Of a stretch of 51,286 bases of DNA, positions 1,995 to 39,547 are shown in pieces (the first letter of the stretch is position 1; every line of letters begins with the position of its first letter). The stretch is from positions 1 to 51,286 of the IMG/VR virus record IMGVR_UViG_3300021432_000236; one strand, written 5' to 3'. Source of the stretch: a virus. The translations under genes and the position numbers were made by a program. The notes beneath the pieces are model-generated. The model saw nothing but the letters and a program-made list of their open reading frames with translations, ran no database searches and was not told where the DNA came from.

Positions 1995-2585
1995 TTGAAT
2001 ACTATTGTAACTGAAACGACTGAACATGGCGAAATGCCAATTGACGTCTATCACAAGCTAGCCAATGACCGTATTTTGTTCATCACAGAGTACATTACTG
2101 ATCGTGTTGCTGCCGACATCACCGCTACTCTATTATTGAAGGACAGTGAAGATTCTGAAAAGAAGATAACTTTGTTTATCAATTCACAGGGCGGCGACAT
2201 TCGTAATGCTTTTATGATTGTTGATATGATGAACATGATTGATGCTCCTATCGAAACAGTCTGCATTGGCGCTGCCATGGATGAAGCCGCTCTCATTTTG
2301 ACTTCTGGTGCTCCTGGCATGAGATTTGCTACCAAAAATTCTCGTATTGCTGCTAGCCAGCTGGTACATGAGTGGATTACCCGCGCCGACCTAACAGATG
2401 CTAAAAGGTATTTGGAGTTGGCATTAGTTGATAACAAACGCATGATGGAGATTTTTGCTAAAACAACCGGTAAAAGTTTAAAGCAAGTCATGGAAGATTT
2501 TGAGCGACGAGTGTTTATGGGTGCTGCTCATGCAGCCAAGTATGGTTTAATTGACAAAGTAGTTAGTTTTAGTAAGGTGCAATAA
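1995..2585 (+). CDS. ClpP-like protein lacking catalytic Ser (ClpR-like)
   Basis: A 196-residue ClpP-fold protein (family S14). It matches ClpP across 'ITLFINSQGGDIRNAF', the APIETVCIG strand, RFATKNSR and the C-terminal YGLIDKV. The nucleophile position of the GxAASMGA motif reads GAAMDEAA, so Ser is Asp96. At the canonical His position (NSRVMIH in ClpP) there is Ser121, with a His four residues on at 125. Only the Asp (Asp168) is kept. It is therefore probably not proteolytic itself and may form a mixed ring with the next protein, like plastid and cyanobacterial ClpR. The start is a TTG at 1995 with no strong RBS; an ATG at 2034 is the alternative. Confidence 0.88.
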   Translation: MNTIVTETTEHGEMPIDVYHKLANDRILFITEYITDRVAADITATLLLKDSEDSEKKITLFINSQGGDIRNAFMIVDMMNMIDAPIETVCIGAAMDEAALILTSGAPGMRFATKNSRIAASQLVHEWITRADLTDAKRYLELALVDNKRMMEIFAKTTGKSLKQVMEDFERRVFMGAAHAAKYGLIDKVVSFSKVQ

Positions 2586-3178
2586 TGGGAAAAGGATGCG
2601 ATCACAATCACGACCATATTCGTGCTCCCCTTCTTGCAGGATATGCTGACACCTATGTTAAACTGGCTAAACATCGTATTTTGGTGGTAGCCGAAGATGT
2701 TTCTGACACCATGGCAGCGGAATTGTCCGCTATGTTGCTCTATTTTGACAACGAAGATCATGAAGCAACCATTGAAATGCACATTCATTCTGATGGTGGG
2801 GCTGTAACGGGATTGCTAAACATTTATGATGTTATGCAAATGGTTCAAGCTCCCATCAAAACTGTTTGTGTAGGTAAGTGTTTTTCAGCAGCGGCTGTAT
2901 TATTGGCAGCAGGTAATAAAGGTGAAAGGTATGCTCAGAAGAATTCTAGCATTATGATTCACGGTATTCAGTGCGGTTTTCCCATTCCAGGTCACGACAT
3001 GACCTCTTCCAAAAACTATTATGAGTTTTTGGTGGAAAACAACGACAATATTATGAAGATTTTGGCACATCATACGGGTCACTCCCTCGAAAAAGTGAAG
3101 AATGACTGCAAGCAAGATGTTTACATGGATGCCAAGCAAGCGTTAGAATATGGACTAATTGACCATATCATCGGATAA
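2585..3178 (+). CDS. ClpP-like serine protease with intact triad
   Basis: A 197-residue ClpP-family peptidase. The nucleophile motif CVGKCFSAAAVLL has Ser101, the next motif NSSIMIHG has His126, and KVKNDCKQD has Asp174. HSDGGAVTGLLNIYDVM is the oxyanion strand-helix region. ClpP forms two stacked seven-subunit rings that degrade proteins fed by an AAA+ unfoldase. The N terminus has a His/Asp/Cys cluster (GCDHNHDHIRAP) not usual for ClpP. Its ATG overlaps the stop of the catalytically altered copy (TAATG), so the two are probably made in fixed ratio. No ClpX, ClpA or ClpC gene is in this window, so a host unfoldase may be used. A terminator follows. Confidence 0.92.
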   Translation: MGKGCDHNHDHIRAPLLAGYADTYVKLAKHRILVVAEDVSDTMAAELSAMLLYFDNEDHEATIEMHIHSDGGAVTGLLNIYDVMQMVQAPIKTVCVGKCFSAAAVLLAAGNKGERYAQKNSSIMIHGIQCGFPIPGHDMTSSKNYYEFLVENNDNIMKILAHHTGHSLEKVKNDCKQDVYMDAKQALEYGLIDHIIG

Positions 3179-4681: not shown

Positions 4682-5089
4682 ATGGAAGAGGGTATCATCT
4701 ACATTCATAATAACGTTTTTAACACGCTAATAGCTGTTTCAGAAGATGAGCAGGCGCAGGGTTTAATGGGACAAACTTGGCCACCTCCCGTTATGTCATT
4801 TGTTTATGCGGAACCGCGTGTTACTAAATTCTGGATGAAGAACACTCCAAGCCCATTAGATATTGTGTTTTGCCACAATGGTAAGGTTACTCAAATTTGT
4901 AAGGGCGAACCCTACTCTACCACTATGATTGGTGATAACAAATTTAGTGATTTGGTCATCGAGTTCCCATATGGGACCGCTGTAACCTCAGGTATCAAAT
5001 TGGGGCATAGTGTGGGACTCGTCAAACCGACCGTCGAGGAATTAAAAAAAATCATTGCTGAAAAATATCATGGAATTGTAAAACTTTGA
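4682..5089 (+). CDS. DUF192-family protein
   Basis: A 135-residue protein matching DUF192 throughout: the 'QGLMGQ' motif, then 'MSFVYAEP' in place of GMLFvF, the hallmark 'KFWMKNTPSPLDIVFCHNGKV' region (Trp/Met/Lys/Asn and Leu-Asp-Ile), and a C-terminal 'VIEFPYGTAVTSGIKLGHSV'. The family is a small beta-rich fold of unknown biochemical role found in bacteria and archaea. It is usually exported or lipid-linked, but this copy has no signal peptide. GAGGTAAT precedes the ATG. It sits between the Pro-rich protein and the FtsK-like motor. Confidence 0.85.
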   Translation: MEEGIIYIHNNVFNTLIAVSEDEQAQGLMGQTWPPPVMSFVYAEPRVTKFWMKNTPSPLDIVFCHNGKVTQICKGEPYSTTMIGDNKFSDLVIEFPYGTAVTSGIKLGHSVGLVKPTVEELKKIIAEKYHGIVKL

Positions 5090-5122: not shown

Positions 5123-6127
5123 ATGGGTATCAAGATGGAACTCATTCAAGACTTTAACAAAATTCTGACCTCCTTCAACATCAAGGCTTCCTGTGTCGAT
5201 CACAGAAGGGTGGATAACTATTTCTACTATGACCTGAAGTTGAATCCTAGTGCTAAAGTGAAGGATGTGCAAAAGTATAGTGATGAGATTTCGCTGGCAC
5301 TCAAAACGCCATGTAAACCTAGTGTCAAGGTTTTACACAGTGAGGGTGTGGTTAGATTAGAATTTGCCACGCCACGTTTAGCTCCGCTCAAACTATTTGA
5401 TTACTTTACTAACTATGGTATTCCTAAAGGTGAGATCAACTGCCTATTAGGTCAGACAGTAGATGGCAAAGAGATGTGGATGGATTTAGCTACTAATCCT
5501 CATATGATTGTTTCTGGCACCACAGGATCTGGTAAAAGCACACTCATTCACAATATCATCGCTAACCTGCTTAATTACAACAATGTGGATTTGTATCTAT
5601 CCGATCCGAAGCGTATTGAGTTTATTGAGTACAGTAATCGTATTAAGAGTATCGATGTTCGATTTTCTTACGATGAAACTTTGGCACTCATCAATAATGC
5701 CTTAGAGTTGATGGAATTTAGATATGAACTGATACGTCGGGGTAATATCAAGATTACAGATTTCAAACCAATGGTAATTATCATTGATGAGTTTGCCGAT
5801 CTTATTATGCAAGATAAGAATGATGCCTTTTATACTTCGCTGTGTCGTCTAGCGCAGAAGTGTCGAGCGGCTCGTATTCATATCATTCTGGCGACGCAGC
5901 GTCCCTCGGTCAATATTATTAATGGAACCATCAAAGCTAACTTTCCGGCTCGCATTGCCTGCCGAGTAGCTAGCCATGTGGATTCCAAAGTTATTCTCGA
6001 TGCTTCTGGAGCTGAGAACCTATTGGGTAAGGGTGATGCTTTGGTTCGCGATAACTCACGTTTTCTAGAACGTTTTCAAGTGGCATATACTGACGCAGCG
6101 GAAGTCTGCTCTGTATTCGGAGAATAA
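5123..6127 (+). CDS. FtsK/SpoIIIE-type DNA translocase ATPase
   Basis: A 334-residue motor that matches the FtsK/SpoIIIE core closely. It has Walker A GTTGSGKST (132-140), 'SDPKRIEFIEY' (the DPKR/E-Y motif), Walker B 'MVIIIDEFADLI' (217-228), then 'RAARIHIILATQRPSVNII' and 'IKANFPARIACRV...DSKVILD..GAENLLGKGD'. Residues 1-100 resemble the alpha/beta domain before the motor. The membrane N terminus and the gamma DNA-reading winged helix of cellular FtsK are absent. Such motors form hexamers that pump double-stranded DNA. A job in moving or packaging phage DNA is inference. The ATG has no clear RBS; Met5 (5135) is an alternative. Confidence 0.93.
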   Translation: MGIKMELIQDFNKILTSFNIKASCVDHRRVDNYFYYDLKLNPSAKVKDVQKYSDEISLALKTPCKPSVKVLHSEGVVRLEFATPRLAPLKLFDYFTNYGIPKGEINCLLGQTVDGKEMWMDLATNPHMIVSGTTGSGKSTLIHNIIANLLNYNNVDLYLSDPKRIEFIEYSNRIKSIDVRFSYDETLALINNALELMEFRYELIRRGNIKITDFKPMVIIIDEFADLIMQDKNDAFYTSLCRLAQKCRAARIHIILATQRPSVNIINGTIKANFPARIACRVASHVDSKVILDASGAENLLGKGDALVRDNSRFLERFQVAYTDAAEVCSVFGE

Positions 6128-10195: not shown

Positions 10196-11524
10196 ATGAG
10201 TAATAAACTAACTGAGAAAAAAGACTATTTGACTCCTGACAAACTAGAAGGTCAGGAACATCTTTCTTTGCAACAACTAGCGAAGCTAGTTCCTTCAACT
10301 GGAAAATATCCAGTTGATTTTGGTGTGCCCCGCCCACCAGCTAACTTCATCGATTTGATGAACTGGACGGCTGATCAATTCAGTCCTGCTCTTAAGGATC
10401 AAACCCTCTTAAACAAGTTTGTTCACAACCGCATTATTGTTGACGGACAATTTTTGCATTTCTGTAAAGATAATGGGGTGACCGTAGAGTGTCTGTATAA
10501 AGACTCTATCATTTCCTGGAAGACCGATCATAACTATGAGAAGTTCTTTGCCCAGGGTGTTTTTCTCATCAAGGCTAAAGGACTAGAATTCCTTCATGCA
10601 GCCCTTTTCCACAAAGGTAATCAAAACGAAGATGAGATTAGCTTCTTTGTTATCTGTTCAGAAAAGAACTATGAGGCTTACGTCAAGTTGCGCAATCAGT
10701 TTGATGAGTGGGTACAAGAGCGAGACCGTAGCAACCTACACATTCGTGTGATTGACGGCGAGGATATTCCTTATACCAAGGACGCTTCTTGGGAAGAATT
10801 ATTCTTGCCCGAGGACATTAAAAATGAATTAAAGGGATTAGTGGAGAATTTCCTATCTTCTAAGGATTTCTATCTGGAGAAGAAGATTCCTTGGAAGCGC
10901 GGTTTCTTGTTGTATGGCAAGCCGGGCAATGGCAAGACCTCTATCATCCGCACTATTATGTCGGAGTACAACTTTAAGCCAGTTACCATTGTACCTGGTG
11001 CCAACGATGAGGCAGTAAGAGAAGCGTTTTCATACGCAGAAGAACAAAGCCCTTCGTTGCTTTATTTTGAAGATTTAGATTCCCTCCTGGAAAAAAGCGT
11101 GGATATCTCTTCTTTCTTGAATTTGATGGATGGTATCTCTACCAAGAATGGATTACTGGTAATAGCGACAGCTAATGATGTCAAAAAGCTAAAAACCAAT
11201 ATTACCCAGAGACCATCTAGGTTTGATAGAAAGTTTGAGATTCCTCTACCAAATCAAGAAATGGCTTATATATATCTTAAGAGATGGTTTGGTAATATCA
11301 TTAGTACCCAGAAGGTGCGTGAGCTTGCCAAATACGCTGAAAAGTACGAGTTTTCTTATGCTTACTTAAAAGAACTTTACATCTCTTCGATGTTCGAGGC
11401 TTTGGCACACAACCGCAAGGCGCCGACTGTCAAGGATGTAGATAATACGCTGCAACGTCTGGTGAAAGACAAAAACATTTTGAATAACGGTAGTTCCATC
11501 AACACGGATAAGTATTTCAAGTGA
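10196..11524 (+). CDS. AAA+ ATPase, BCS1-like
   Basis: A 442-residue protein. An N-terminal domain of about 200 residues with no clear relative is followed by one AAA+ module: Walker A GKPGNGKTS (241-249), Walker B LLYFEDLDSL (288-297), sensor 1 'LLVIATAND', and the arginine-finger region 'RPSRFDRKFEIPLPN'. 'WKRGFLLYGKPGNGKTS' is typical of BCS1-type members. A small helical lid follows. BCS1-like ATPases remodel or translocate folded proteins, and phage versions are of unknown role. A partnership with the orphan M41 protease or with the ClpP rings encoded in this window is possible, but there is no direct evidence. Confidence 0.92.
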   Translation: MSNKLTEKKDYLTPDKLEGQEHLSLQQLAKLVPSTGKYPVDFGVPRPPANFIDLMNWTADQFSPALKDQTLLNKFVHNRIIVDGQFLHFCKDNGVTVECLYKDSIISWKTDHNYEKFFAQGVFLIKAKGLEFLHAALFHKGNQNEDEISFFVICSEKNYEAYVKLRNQFDEWVQERDRSNLHIRVIDGEDIPYTKDASWEELFLPEDIKNELKGLVENFLSSKDFYLEKKIPWKRGFLLYGKPGNGKTSIIRTIMSEYNFKPVTIVPGANDEAVREAFSYAEEQSPSLLYFEDLDSLLEKSVDISSFLNLMDGISTKNGLLVIATANDVKKLKTNITQRPSRFDRKFEIPLPNQEMAYIYLKRWFGNIISTQKVRELAKYAEKYEFSYAYLKELYISSMFEALAHNRKAPTVKDVDNTLQRLVKDKNILNNGSSINTDKYFK

Positions 11525-11547: not shown

Positions 11548-11925
11548 ATGAAAGACAATAGAGATTACAAAAAACCAAGGAGAAACTCCTTCAAGAAGGC
11601 GCCGAAGGGAGGTGAAACTCAGCCAGTCGTCGTCACCGACAAATTCGCACATATTGAACCTGTGCAAGCCCAACCCTTGGAAGTCAAAGTCTATCATAAC
11701 AATTTTGACAAAGCTCTTAGAGCATTTAGGGCATTAGTCCAAAAGGAAAGAATCCTTTCGGCATATAAAGAGAAGCAATCGTACGAGAAGCCCTCTAATA
11801 AACGTAGGAGAAAACGTAACGAGATGAAGAGAAAGCGTCTTGAACTAGAGAATCCTAGACCACCACGTGAGTCTAAGAAATCTAATTTCAAACGCAAACC
11901 TAAATCTGACGGTTCTCCAGAATAA
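11548..11925 (+). CDS. rpsU: Ribosomal protein bS21 with basic extensions
   Basis: Residues about 45-98 of this 125-residue protein match small-subunit protein bS21: 'VKVYHNNFDKALRAFRAL' aligns with the VkVrenEpfdkALRRFkr start of the family, followed by 'YEKPSNKRRRKRNEMKRKR', the YEKPs.kRkRkk signature. bS21 sits near the 3' end of 16S rRNA and helps choose mRNA. Phage bS21 homologues are known from large phages and can be assembled into host ribosomes. This copy has a 44-residue N-terminal extension and a basic C-terminal tail not found in ordinary bS21. No strong Shine-Dalgarno precedes its ATG. It follows the AAA+ gene by 23 nt. Confidence 0.88.
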   Translation: MKDNRDYKKPRRNSFKKAPKGGETQPVVVTDKFAHIEPVQAQPLEVKVYHNNFDKALRAFRALVQKERILSAYKEKQSYEKPSNKRRRKRNEMKRKRLELENPRPPRESKKSNFKRKPKSDGSPE

Positions 11926-15662: not shown

Positions 15663-16199
15663 ATGATTATCATAAATAACGAAGCAGCTTTACGAGTGAA
15701 GTGCGAGGACGTGTCTCCCGAAGAAGTGGGTCAATTGATTCAGACTTTGGAGGCAGAACTAGACTACGCCAATAAATTGGGCAAAGGCGGCATTGGATTA
15801 GCTGCTCCACAAATTGGTATAGCCAAGAACATTGCTATTGTTCGACTTGGCAGAAATTCGGAATTCAACGTTGACTTGGTCAACTGTAAGATAGATAAGG
15901 GATTTGATCCCGCCGTTTTTAAGGACGAAGGATGTCTATCTTTCCCTGGTCGTGTGGAAACAACTACACGATTTCAAGAGGTACATATTGTCAATAATCT
16001 AGTTTATCCACATACTTTTGTGGCAACTGGATTGATGGCTGTCGTCTGTCAGCATGAGTTGGATCATCTTAATCAAACTTTGTTTATGGACAGAAAGCTG
16101 CCACCTGTAGCGCCCGTGGTCAGTAAGAAGAAGTCCGGGCCAAATGAGCCTTGTCTATGTGGCTCTGGCAAGAAAACCAAGAAATGCTGTAGGAGGTAA
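15663..16199 (+). CDS. def: Peptide deformylase with C-terminal SEC-C zinc motif
   Basis: A 178-residue enzyme that removes the formyl group from new proteins. All three deformylase motifs are intact: GIGLAAPQIG (43-52), EGCLS (89-93, metal Cys91) and QHELDHLNQTLF (130-141, with metal His131/His135 and catalytic Glu132). After the catalytic domain a short linker leads to 'GPNEPCLCGSGKKTKKCC', a SEC-C motif (Cys164, Cys166, Cys175, Cys176) as at the end of SecA. That tail is not part of ordinary deformylase and may bind ribosomes or protein partners. Phage deformylases are known, mostly from cyanophages and without this tail. The gene's last codons (AGG AGG TAA) double as the ribosome binding site for the next gene. 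Confidence 0.95.
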   Translation: MIIINNEAALRVKCEDVSPEEVGQLIQTLEAELDYANKLGKGGIGLAAPQIGIAKNIAIVRLGRNSEFNVDLVNCKIDKGFDPAVFKDEGCLSFPGRVETTTRFQEVHIVNNLVYPHTFVATGLMAVVCQHELDHLNQTLFMDRKLPPVAPVVSKKKSGPNEPCLCGSGKKTKKCCRR

Positions 16200-24571: not shown

Positions 24572-25819
24572 ATGCAAATTGAAGTCAAAGAAATTGAGCC
24601 TTGCAAACTAAGCATTCACTATGTAGCGGACGCTGAAGAGATTCTTAACAAACGTGGCGAGGTTATTGCCCACTTCAAAAAAGCTCCAGTCCCAGGTTTT
24701 CGTCCTGGTAAAGCTTCTGTCGATGCCATCAAGGTTCATTACAAAACTCAAATTGAAGAATCTCTCAAAAGAGCCTTGGCTGAAGATGCTTTTCATAATA
24801 CCCTTTTCGAAAAGAAACTCCGCCCCCACGGCGCCCCAAGATTCAACTCCCTGCTTCTAGCAGATGGTAAGTTTACTTGTGATTTTGATCTACATACTAA
24901 GCCAGATTTCGAATTGCAGCCATATCAAGATTTGGAAATCCCTAAGCCACACGCCGATCAAACCACACTGGAACTGACGGAAAAAATGCTACAAGAGCTA
25001 AGGATTCGTTTTGGTGAAGCCGTACCGTATAACGAAACCGACTTTGTACAAAATGGTGACAATGTCATTGTTGATTACGAAGGCTCTGTGGATGGCGAAA
25101 AAGTAGATCATTTATGTGCCGTTGGTGAAATGTTGACGGTAGGTGCTAGCAATCTTACGCAATTCGACGATAATTTGCTTGGAATGATTATGGGAGAAAC
25201 CCGAGAATTTGATTTAGTGGTACCTGACGCAGGGCTACCCTCTTTGGTAGGTAAAACGGTTCACCTCAAAGTAACTTTGAATATGGGGTCTAAGACTACG
25301 CCATGTCCACTAGATGATACTTTGGCTCTTAAGTTTGGTAAGAAAGACTTTGCAGAATTGAAAGCTTTTGCTTCCGGCACTGCCGAAGCCGCCATTCAAA
25401 ACAAGAGCAAACAAAACATCAATGAAGCTGTGGCTGGCAGATTAGTGGAATCAAATAAGTTTGATGTTCCTAATTGGCTATCATTATCTGAAGCCCAATA
25501 TTTGGTGCACAATGCCAAATTAGATTGGAATATACTATCAGATCTTGATAAAGAAAAATATATCGAAATGGGAGCTAAGAATGTAAAGCTTTCTCTTATC
25601 TTAGATAAGATTAGAGAGTCTAATCCTGAAGCTCAATTAACTGACCAAGAGGTTTTTGAAGTTTTGAAGCATAATCTAGCCAAGACTCAAGTTAAGCAAC
25701 CATTAGACGAAGTTATTCAGCAAATGAATAAAACGGGATATTTACAGATTTTGTTCTCTAGAATTAGAGACGAACACACGATGGATTTCATCACAAAAAC
25801 AGTTAAACTAGTTGAGTAA
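24572..25819 (+). CDS. tig: Trigger factor (ribosome-associated chaperone)
   Basis: A full-length 415-residue trigger factor. The N-terminal ribosome-binding domain has the signature 'VPGFRPGKAS' (GFRPGK at 42-47, the loop that docks on ribosomal protein uL23), then the 'FHNTLFEKKLRPHGAPRF' helix. The FKBP-like prolyl isomerase domain begins near 'QNGDNVIVDYEGSVDGEKV'. The C-terminal chaperone arms run from about residue 245. It binds new chains as they leave the ribosome. This is a cellular protein seldom found in phages. A good RBS (GAGGACCAC) precedes it. It is followed closely by two small unknown genes and an M41 protease. Confidence 0.92.
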   Translation: MQIEVKEIEPCKLSIHYVADAEEILNKRGEVIAHFKKAPVPGFRPGKASVDAIKVHYKTQIEESLKRALAEDAFHNTLFEKKLRPHGAPRFNSLLLADGKFTCDFDLHTKPDFELQPYQDLEIPKPHADQTTLELTEKMLQELRIRFGEAVPYNETDFVQNGDNVIVDYEGSVDGEKVDHLCAVGEMLTVGASNLTQFDDNLLGMIMGETREFDLVVPDAGLPSLVGKTVHLKVTLNMGSKTTPCPLDDTLALKFGKKDFAELKAFASGTAEAAIQNKSKQNINEAVAGRLVESNKFDVPNWLSLSEAQYLVHNAKLDWNILSDLDKEKYIEMGAKNVKLSLILDKIRESNPEAQLTDQEVFEVLKHNLAKTQVKQPLDEVIQQMNKTGYLQILFSRIRDEHTMDFITKTVKLVE

Positions 25820-38054: not shown

Positions 38055-38612
38055 ATGAAAAAAGTATTAGGATTTGATGTGTCGAGTACTACAATTGGTT
38101 GGTGTGTATTAGAGATTAATGAAACAACCAAAGAGATCGATTATAAAGTTTGTGACTATGTCAAACCCCTAAAGAAGGGATCCATCATTGAACGTATTGT
38201 AGATACCAGAAATAAGATTTCTGTTATTATCAATAAGGTACAACCAGATTATATTGGCATTGAAGATATTATCCAATTCATGCAAGGCAAAAGTACTGCC
38301 AAAACTATTATCATGCTAACTACATTTAATAGGATGATTGGATTATGCGCTTATGATTATCTGGGAAGGTCGCCGGAGTTATTCAATGTCATGACTATTA
38401 GGCATGGACTAAAAGAAGATAAAGTTTTGCCAAAAAAAGAAGATATGCCGGAGCTTGTCGCTAAACATTTAGGAATTACATTTCCTTACGAGTACAATAA
38501 AAAGGGCAAAGTCAAAGTGGAAAGTTTCGACAAAGCGGATGGTGTAGCTGTCGCTCTCTATTATGCACGAGTCCTCACTGATAAGGTCAAGCGTAAGGGT
38601 AAGAAAAAATGA
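38055..38612 (+). CDS. ruvC: RuvC-like Holliday junction resolvase
   Basis: A 185-residue RuvC-family nuclease with the four acidic residues expected: Asp8 in 'VLGFDVSSTTIGW', Glu70 in 'DYIGIEDII', and Asp159 and Asp162 in 'SFDKADGVAVALYY'. The C terminus is basic. It cuts four-way DNA junctions, to resolve recombination intermediates or debranch DNA before packaging. Its end overlaps DnaJ's ATG by 4 nt (ATGA). Confidence 0.93.
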   Translation: MKKVLGFDVSSTTIGWCVLEINETTKEIDYKVCDYVKPLKKGSIIERIVDTRNKISVIINKVQPDYIGIEDIIQFMQGKSTAKTIIMLTTFNRMIGLCAYDYLGRSPELFNVMTIRHGLKEDKVLPKKEDMPELVAKHLGITFPYEYNKKGKVKVESFDKADGVAVALYYARVLTDKVKRKGKKK

Positions 38613-39547
38613 ATCTCAAGGAAGCCTACTCAATCTTAGAAATTCCCCAGACCTCCACACCGGAGGAGGCTAAGAAGAAGTACCGCGAACTTACGAAAAA
38701 GTATCACCCCGACATCAATAAGGAGGTTGGAGCCGAAGATAAGTTCAAAAAGATCAATGAAGCTTATCAGGTAGTCTCTTCTGGTAGAAGTACTGATCGT
38801 GAAGATGTGATGCATCAGCGCAATCCATTTACCAATCCTTTTGGTAGCCAGATTCAATATCAGGCAGAAAATATTCCTTTACACACTACTATCTCATTTA
38901 AAGATTCAGTGAGGGGATGTAAAGTGGATCTAAAGTTTAACCGCAATGCCAAGTGCAAAAACTGCCATGGTCAAGGCGAAGTATCCATCCATAATGGTTG
39001 TACTAAATGTGGTGGTAAAGGACAAGTCGTTAGTCGTCAGGGCAACATGATAGTAGTACGGACTTGTGATAAATGTTTTGGTCGGTCATCTGCCGAGGCA
39101 TGTAAAAGCTGCAACGCTACTGGTGTGGTAGAAACTGAAACCTCTATTAACGTCACCATCCCTGGCGGAATTCAGAATGGGAATATTCTGCGTGTAGGTG
39201 GAATGGGAAACTTTGCCGGTCATTTCGGACCACTAGAACAACACACAGACGTGCATCTGCACGTGGCTGTGACTCCAGAAAAGGGCTTATCCCTAGATGG
39301 TAATCAGGTGGTATCTACTTTAGAAATATCTCTTCTAGAAGCCCTGAAAGGGTGCCAAAAGGTAGTTCCTACTATTTTTGGCAATAAAGAAATAGAAGTA
39401 AAACCGATGTCTAGGAATAAAGAAGAGATTATAATTCCACGTTTAGGCGTGAATGGCACTGGGAATCAAAGAGTAATTCTAGACGTCAAATACCCAGCGG
39501 ATGTCCATAAGATTATCGACATCCTTACTAATGAGAGGATATCATAA
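38609..39547 (+). CDS. dnaJ: DnaJ (Hsp40) co-chaperone
   Basis: A 312-residue DnaJ. The J domain (about 1-65) has HPD at 33-35 ('KKYHPDINKEVG'). The cysteine-rich region has four CxxC repeats (CKNCHGQG, CTKCGGKG, CDKCFGRS, CKSCNATG). The two C-terminal substrate domains start near 'TSINVTIPGGIQNGNILRVGG'. The Gly/Phe linker is short (about 70-85). J domains stimulate DnaK; no dnaK or grpE is in this window, so it probably recruits host DnaK. It stands between ruvC and a zinc-ribbon protein. Confidence 0.96.
   Translation: MNLKEAYSILEIPQTSTPEEAKKKYRELTKKYHPDINKEVGAEDKFKKINEAYQVVSSGRSTDREDVMHQRNPFTNPFGSQIQYQAENIPLHTTISFKDSVRGCKVDLKFNRNAKCKNCHGQGEVSIHNGCTKCGGKGQVVSRQGNMIVVRTCDKCFGRSSAEACKSCNATGVVETETSINVTIPGGIQNGNILRVGGMGNFAGHFGPLEQHTDVHLHVAVTPEKGLSLDGNQVVSTLEISLLEALKGCQKVVPTIFGNKEIEVKPMSRNKEEIIIPRLGVNGTGNQRVILDVKYPADVHKIIDILTNERIS

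Follow-up and report, generated by a model that had tools for sequence, protein, structure and literature searches.

A conserved pair of ClpP-like genes in a viral genome

The sequence analysed here, a 51,286-base virus record from IMG/VR, is referred to as the window. Two consecutive ClpP-like genes, termed A and B, lie on the same strand within it, in a block of genes several of which could be assigned to protein families:

1639-1992, + strand: DksA/TraR-type zinc-finger gene (PF01258), directly 5' of A and adjoining the pair in 33/33 related loci
1995-2585, + strand: gene A, a ClpR-like pseudo-subunit of 196 aa with a TTG start and a ClpP fold without any catalytic residue
2585-3178, + strand: gene B, a putative catalytic ClpP subunit of 197 aa, whose start overlaps the stop of A (TAATG)
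4682-5089, + strand: DUF192 gene (PF02643), a neighbour kept in 33/33 loci
5123-6127, + strand: FtsK/SpoIIIE-type ATPase gene (PF01580), a neighbour kept in 32/33 loci

Scans of viral contigs in IMG/VR identified 39 related contigs of up to 481 kb, which together carry 33 distinct pairs. Across these loci the block follows a conserved order, in which genes for HU, an unknown protein and the DksA-type zinc finger are followed by A, B, an unknown 465-aa protein, DUF192, the FtsK-type ATPase and two further unknowns, with topoisomerase I (TopA) coming after the block in most of the loci that extend that far. All 33 loci contain DksA, A, B and DUF192. Farther along, the window carries DNA polymerase and recombinase genes, and no capsid or portal gene was recognised among the window proteins tested; A and B do not sit in a capsid operon. 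ClpP identity to the nearest phage records is below 42%. No tRNA was found in the 51,286-base window.

The window also encodes ribosomal protein S21 (11548-11925), peptide deformylase (15663-16199), trigger factor (24572-25819) and DnaJ (38609-39547), a broad host-like kit for protein synthesis and folding that accompanies the Clp pair.

A has lost its entire catalytic triad while B retains one

The original prediction of two ClpP-like open reading frames at these positions is borne out by matches to PF00574 (157.8 bits for A and 166.3 bits for B, with a cut-off of 20.2) and by alignments of both proteins, end to end, with bacterial ClpP structures in the PDB (E about 1e-33 to 1e-34). The start position of A is supported by the MNT(I/L)V N-terminus, which its relatives share. 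Models generated using AlphaFold 2 (mean pLDDT 86.5 for A and 83.5 for B) resemble ClpPs of known structure, among them the M. tuberculosis ClpP1P2 hetero-complex, with a Foldseek TM of about 0.9 to ClpP structures in the case of A. Alignment with E. coli ClpP then located the triad positions:

2280-2282, + strand: codon for A D96, at the E. coli Ser97 position; never Ser in 33 distinct homologues
2355-2357, + strand: codon for A S121, at the E. coli His122 position; S/G/T/N/D in homologues, never His
2508-2510, + strand: codon for A R172, where E. coli has Asp171; the cross-ring pair E170-R171 (E. coli E169-R170) just before it is retained
2885-2887, + strand: codon for the B nucleophile S101; Ser in 33/33
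2960-2962, + strand: codon for the B catalytic H126; His in 33/33
3116-3118, + strand: codon for the B catalytic D178, at the position of E. coli D171 in the E/D-R-D motif; Asp in 24 and Glu in 9 of 33

All three catalytic residues have been lost from A: the first two replacements had been correctly called from the sequence, while the third, R172, had been missed. For B, the original prediction was right about S101 and H126 but named D174 as the third residue of the triad; this aligns with E. coli D167, another conserved Asp, and the catalytic Asp is D178.

The replacements in A vary between relatives. Among the 33 distinct copies, position 97 (E. coli mature numbering) is D in 19, N in 8, F in 2, K in 2, Y in 1 and R in 1; position 122 is S in 16, G in 7, T in 6, N in 3 and D in 1; and position 171 is R in 16, K in 8, Q in 3 and T, I and L in 2 each. 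The nucleophile position is thus best described as "not Ser", most often Asp, rather than as a fixed Asp. Ser is found there in 0/33 copies of A, as against 33/33 copies of B and all 56 of the other ClpPs compared, from phages or bacteria (each of which has both Ser and His), a distribution that excludes chance as the source of the A-specific loss. The residue that follows the lost nucleophile is Glu in 32/33 copies of A, and Met or Ala in other ClpPs. There is also some pairing of charge between positions 97 and 171, since Asp97 occurs with Arg or Lys in 17/19 cases, while Lys97 occurs with Leu and Arg97 with Gln; given the small number of independent changes, this is only a hint of a replacement salt bridge.

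Like ClpR, then, A is a ClpP homologue without a catalytic triad (33/33) that is encoded beside an active ClpP partner.

The pair is constant across related viruses and under selection

A precedes B on the same strand in 39/39 related contigs. In the 29 of these that were searched whole there are exactly two ClpP genes each, and A was never found without B. The TAATG overlap, proposed as the junction of the two genes, is present in the window but is not conserved: in most relatives B probably starts a few bases before or after the A stop.

Pairwise NG86 estimates, for pairs with unsaturated dS, gave dN/dS values of 0.04-0.20 (A) and 0.03-0.15 (B), which are rough because dS is high. The reading frame of A is open in all relatives, and 28 columns are invariant among 24 aligned sequences, so that A is under purifying selection. 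Two outcomes that would have spoken against the original prediction, a return of Ser in related copies of A and the decay of the gene, were not seen in the 33 distinct copies, each of which adjoins an intact B. On this evolutionary evidence the pair is real, conserved and functional.

A cyanophage origin was considered as an explanation and rejected, as no psbA-type gene was found in any of 24 related contigs.

An origin independent of cyanobacterial ClpR

Two unrooted phylogenetic trees were built, one of 133 rows and a more careful one of 66 rows. A forms a single clade in both (support 99 and 100/99, respectively), as does B (99 and 88/97), and the two subtrees branch similarly. A, B and one single-copy ClpP (L073) together are set apart from the remaining ClpPs with 100/99 support. 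The simplest reading of these unrooted trees would be one duplication before the related phages diverged, followed by the loss of catalysis in A. A profile of A found no relative when used to scan bacterial and archaeal genomes.

The single-copy L073 sits near the B branch and carries a charge-swapped K-E cross-ring pair. It may represent the state before the duplication or the state after a loss of A.

In cyanobacteria, ClpP3 and ClpR form a hetero-tetradecamer that is served by ClpC (PMC7966870). For comparison we used 80 cyanobacterial loci (L123-L202), which were fetched with a ClpR probe, the conclusions resting on the database loci themselves. In nearly all 80 loci an inactive paralogue without a triad is followed directly by an active ClpP gene in the same orientation, as in the phage pair. 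Plastid and apicoplast ClpR are of the same kind as cyanobacterial ClpR. The triad replacements differ, however, being Gly/Asn/Met-Thr in cyanobacterial ClpR and Asp-Asn/Ser-Gly-Thr/Arg-Lys in phage A, and ClpC, ClpX and ClpS were not recognised in the related phage contigs. The origins are also separate: cyanobacterial ClpR and ClpP3 group together (100/99), and descent of A from the ClpR lineage is rejected both by the trees and by an AU test, in which forcing A and ClpR into one clade cost 28.4 log units (p-AU 0.019). The likeness to ClpP/ClpR that had been proposed from the sequence therefore stands as regards a conserved inactive paralogue in the clpR-clpP3 order, and fails as regards descent. 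The phage pair is a variant of the ClpP/ClpR arrangement that lies outside the ClpR lineage, an independent invention, convergent in both its architecture and its loss of residues.

About ten of the 80 cyanobacterial loci contain a third ClpP-like gene between clpR and clpP3, mostly also without the catalytic Ser; the two such copies placed in the tree (L168 and L202) sit beside ClpR.

A and B have undergone complementary losses

In ordinary ClpP, an acid-Arg pair that precedes the catalytic Asp bridges the opposing heptamers and helps to align Asp172 (PMC9823225). Both members of this pair (acid169 and Arg170 in E. coli numbering) are kept in 25/33 copies of A and in 65/70 other ClpPs, as compared with 1/33 copies of B. 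A second structural feature, the N-terminal beta-hairpin of ClpP, lines the axial pore. A motif for this hairpin, which is loose and catches only 31/70 other ClpPs, was found in 29/33 copies of A and in 0/33 copies of B; E8 is kept in 33/33 copies of A. AlphaFold 2 models made from natural alignments agree, in that A possesses the hairpin (E4-9, E12-17), whereas B is disordered over residues 1-16, with pLDDT below 50. B thus combines the ClpP fold and a Ser-His-Asp triad (with Glu for Asp in 9/33 relatives) with the absence of both the axial hairpin and the cross-ring pair.

As judged from these alignments, A has kept contacts and dropped catalysis, and B has kept catalysis and dropped contacts. 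Subunits that can work only as a hetero-oligomer would be expected to show such complementary losses, and a hetero-oligomer of A and B is likely. Some observations count against an obligate pair. E-R-D is still present in L040, the B with the deepest branch, which means that the complementary loss does not go back to the ancestor of the entire family; and L073, with its swapped pair and no partner on its 71-kb fragment, indicates that the acid can be lost where A is absent. The nine copies of B with Glu in place of the catalytic Asp likewise speak against a shared core.

A search for the motor

The absence of a Clp unfoldase from the window, as originally noted, extends to the family. No C-terminal domain of the Clp/Hsp100 type (PF10431; ClpX/ClpA/ClpB) was found in 29/30 related contigs, although these contigs may be incomplete and an unfoldase could have been missed. 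The single match is to a 748-aa ClpB-like protein of the relative G024 (whose A/B locus is L057), in which inspection revealed no IGF/IGL-type docking tripeptide between the TSNIG and RPEFINR motifs; a phage-encoded unfoldase was rejected on these grounds. Weak AAA_2 matches, when examined, proved in most cases to be MoxR-type proteins, about 370 aa in length. No ClpS adaptor was found in 24 contigs. Another candidate, the 442-aa AAA+ protein encoded at 10196-11524, is BCS1-like and has relatives of 53-100% identity in 24/25 related contigs; it was set aside as a motor for want of a recognisable pore loop.

This BCS1-like protein is missing from G024, the only relative with a ClpB-like gene. 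In two of the MoxR-like AAA proteins (L207 and L208) the Walker A loop itself (GVGK^T) is interrupted by some 340 extra residues, the last two before the T being HN; this insert, which is absent from L205, L206 and L210, is apparently an intein.

Since no ClpP-docking unfoldase was recognised in the 30 related contigs, a host unfoldase is the probable motor for a core made of A and B. The pair would then use a host ATPase, or else cleave peptides independently of any unfoldase. Docking of a host unfoldase on either face seems uncertain, since the docking-pocket position Leu114 is Thr in 33/33 copies of A, and B of the window has His62 and Gln114 at pocket positions.

A proposed shared A/B core and its alternatives

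Taken together, we consider it probable, at roughly 0.68, that A and B form one phage-made Clp core. B would supply the catalytic Ser-His-Asp, while A, as a ClpR-type subunit with its triad replaced, would supply what B has lost, namely the acid-Arg pair and the N-terminal beta-hairpin. The active particle would probably be an obligate hetero-tetradecamer of A and B, with B activated by A and only half as many catalytic sites, and it would probably be fed by a host Clp ATPase. Assembly, ring arrangement, the activation of B by A, the use of a host unfoldase and the substrates of this core are features that we infer. The cross-ring argument would favour stacks of A7 on B7; the split of docking features, with the hairpin in A and more canonical pocket residues in most copies of B, would also fit mixed rings. 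A more specific form of the proposal, in which dead A is an obligate allosteric activator that supplies the cross-ring contact lost by B, within a phage-specific core that functions only when both are present and borrows a host unfoldase, has about even odds.

Experimental precedents for such a division of labour come from host-encoded systems. Streptomyces, Mycobacterium, Listeria and Chlamydia encode two ClpP paralogues together, ClpP1 and ClpP2, one of which docks the ATPase or activates its partner (PMC9765437, PMC9823225). In Streptomyces ClpP1 provides catalysis and ClpP2 docks the ATPase, while the triad of Listeria ClpP1 aligns only in the presence of ClpP2 (PMC9765437). Unlike these bacterial pairs the phage pair is viral, and whereas both triads are canonical in Streptomyces and that of Listeria ClpP1 is near-canonical, the triad of phage A is wholly lost.

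ClpP is also found in other jumbo phages of at least a third of a megabase (Atu_ph07, Phosso, Lak and phage G), and reports on jumbo phages describe ClpP genes, unfoldases and ClpS (PMC7824862, PMC6102473). In contrast to A and B, the single ClpPs sampled from such phages have an intact Ser-His-Asp and no adjoining inactive partner, and phage G has a ClpX-like gene of its own next to ClpP. Our search of open-access papers turned up no account of a ClpR-type subunit in phages. A 636-kb uncultured huge phage (LR756504.1) carries two ClpP genes (L212 and L213) about 79 kb apart, both with intact triads.

The original prediction raised the possibility that a phage-made mixed ring could poison or retarget host Clp. 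In one such scenario A, alone or together with B, would join the ClpP rings of the host at infection and poison or redirect the host protease. The acid-Arg pair and axial hairpin that A would require to engage an ordinary ClpP ring are both retained, and, with no ClpP-docking unfoldase found in related phages, any ATP-driven use must involve host Clp parts. Yet a pure poison needs no intact, conserved catalytic partner in every genome, A is never seen without B, and both proteins have diverged far from bacterial ClpP (to about 30-40% identity). With their losses also complementary, poisoning or retargeting of host Clp is unsupported over a core of the phage's own and seems unlikely. A similarly doubtful proposal is that B works alone as a homomeric peptidase, with A doing something else, such as binding peptides or serving as a scaffold. 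The odd conservation of the A pseudo-active site, with its nearly constant Glu and a position 97 that is mostly Asp or Asn, hints that this pocket functions. However, a solitary B would have to manage without the cross-ring acid-Arg pair in 32/33 copies and without the axial hairpin in all 33, and the two genes are inseparable across the 39 contigs.

That A and B are ClpP-related head-maturation (prohead) proteases is very improbable. Although among the PHROGs they match "head maturation protease" families best, they score only 43.5 and 64.8 bits against NCBIfam Clp_rel_HeadMat, far under its cut-off of 120, compared with 144-167 bits for true ClpP models; their neighbours (HU, DksA, DUF192, FtsK and TopA) likewise provide no capsid-gene context. 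Finally, the notion of A as a decaying duplicate, which its lost triad and the six different residues in place of Ser might suggest, is refuted by its low dN/dS, open frames and invariant columns.

For the question of why photosynthetic lineages keep a catalytically dead ClpR, the phage pair provides another instance, independently evolved but in the same gene order and spread over dozens of diverse viral genomes, and with it a comparative test of the role of the dead subunit; as two 20-kDa proteins, A and B are small enough for expression. The pair also suggests that the proteolytic core of giant phages is a specialised one and not a borrowed copy of host ClpP.
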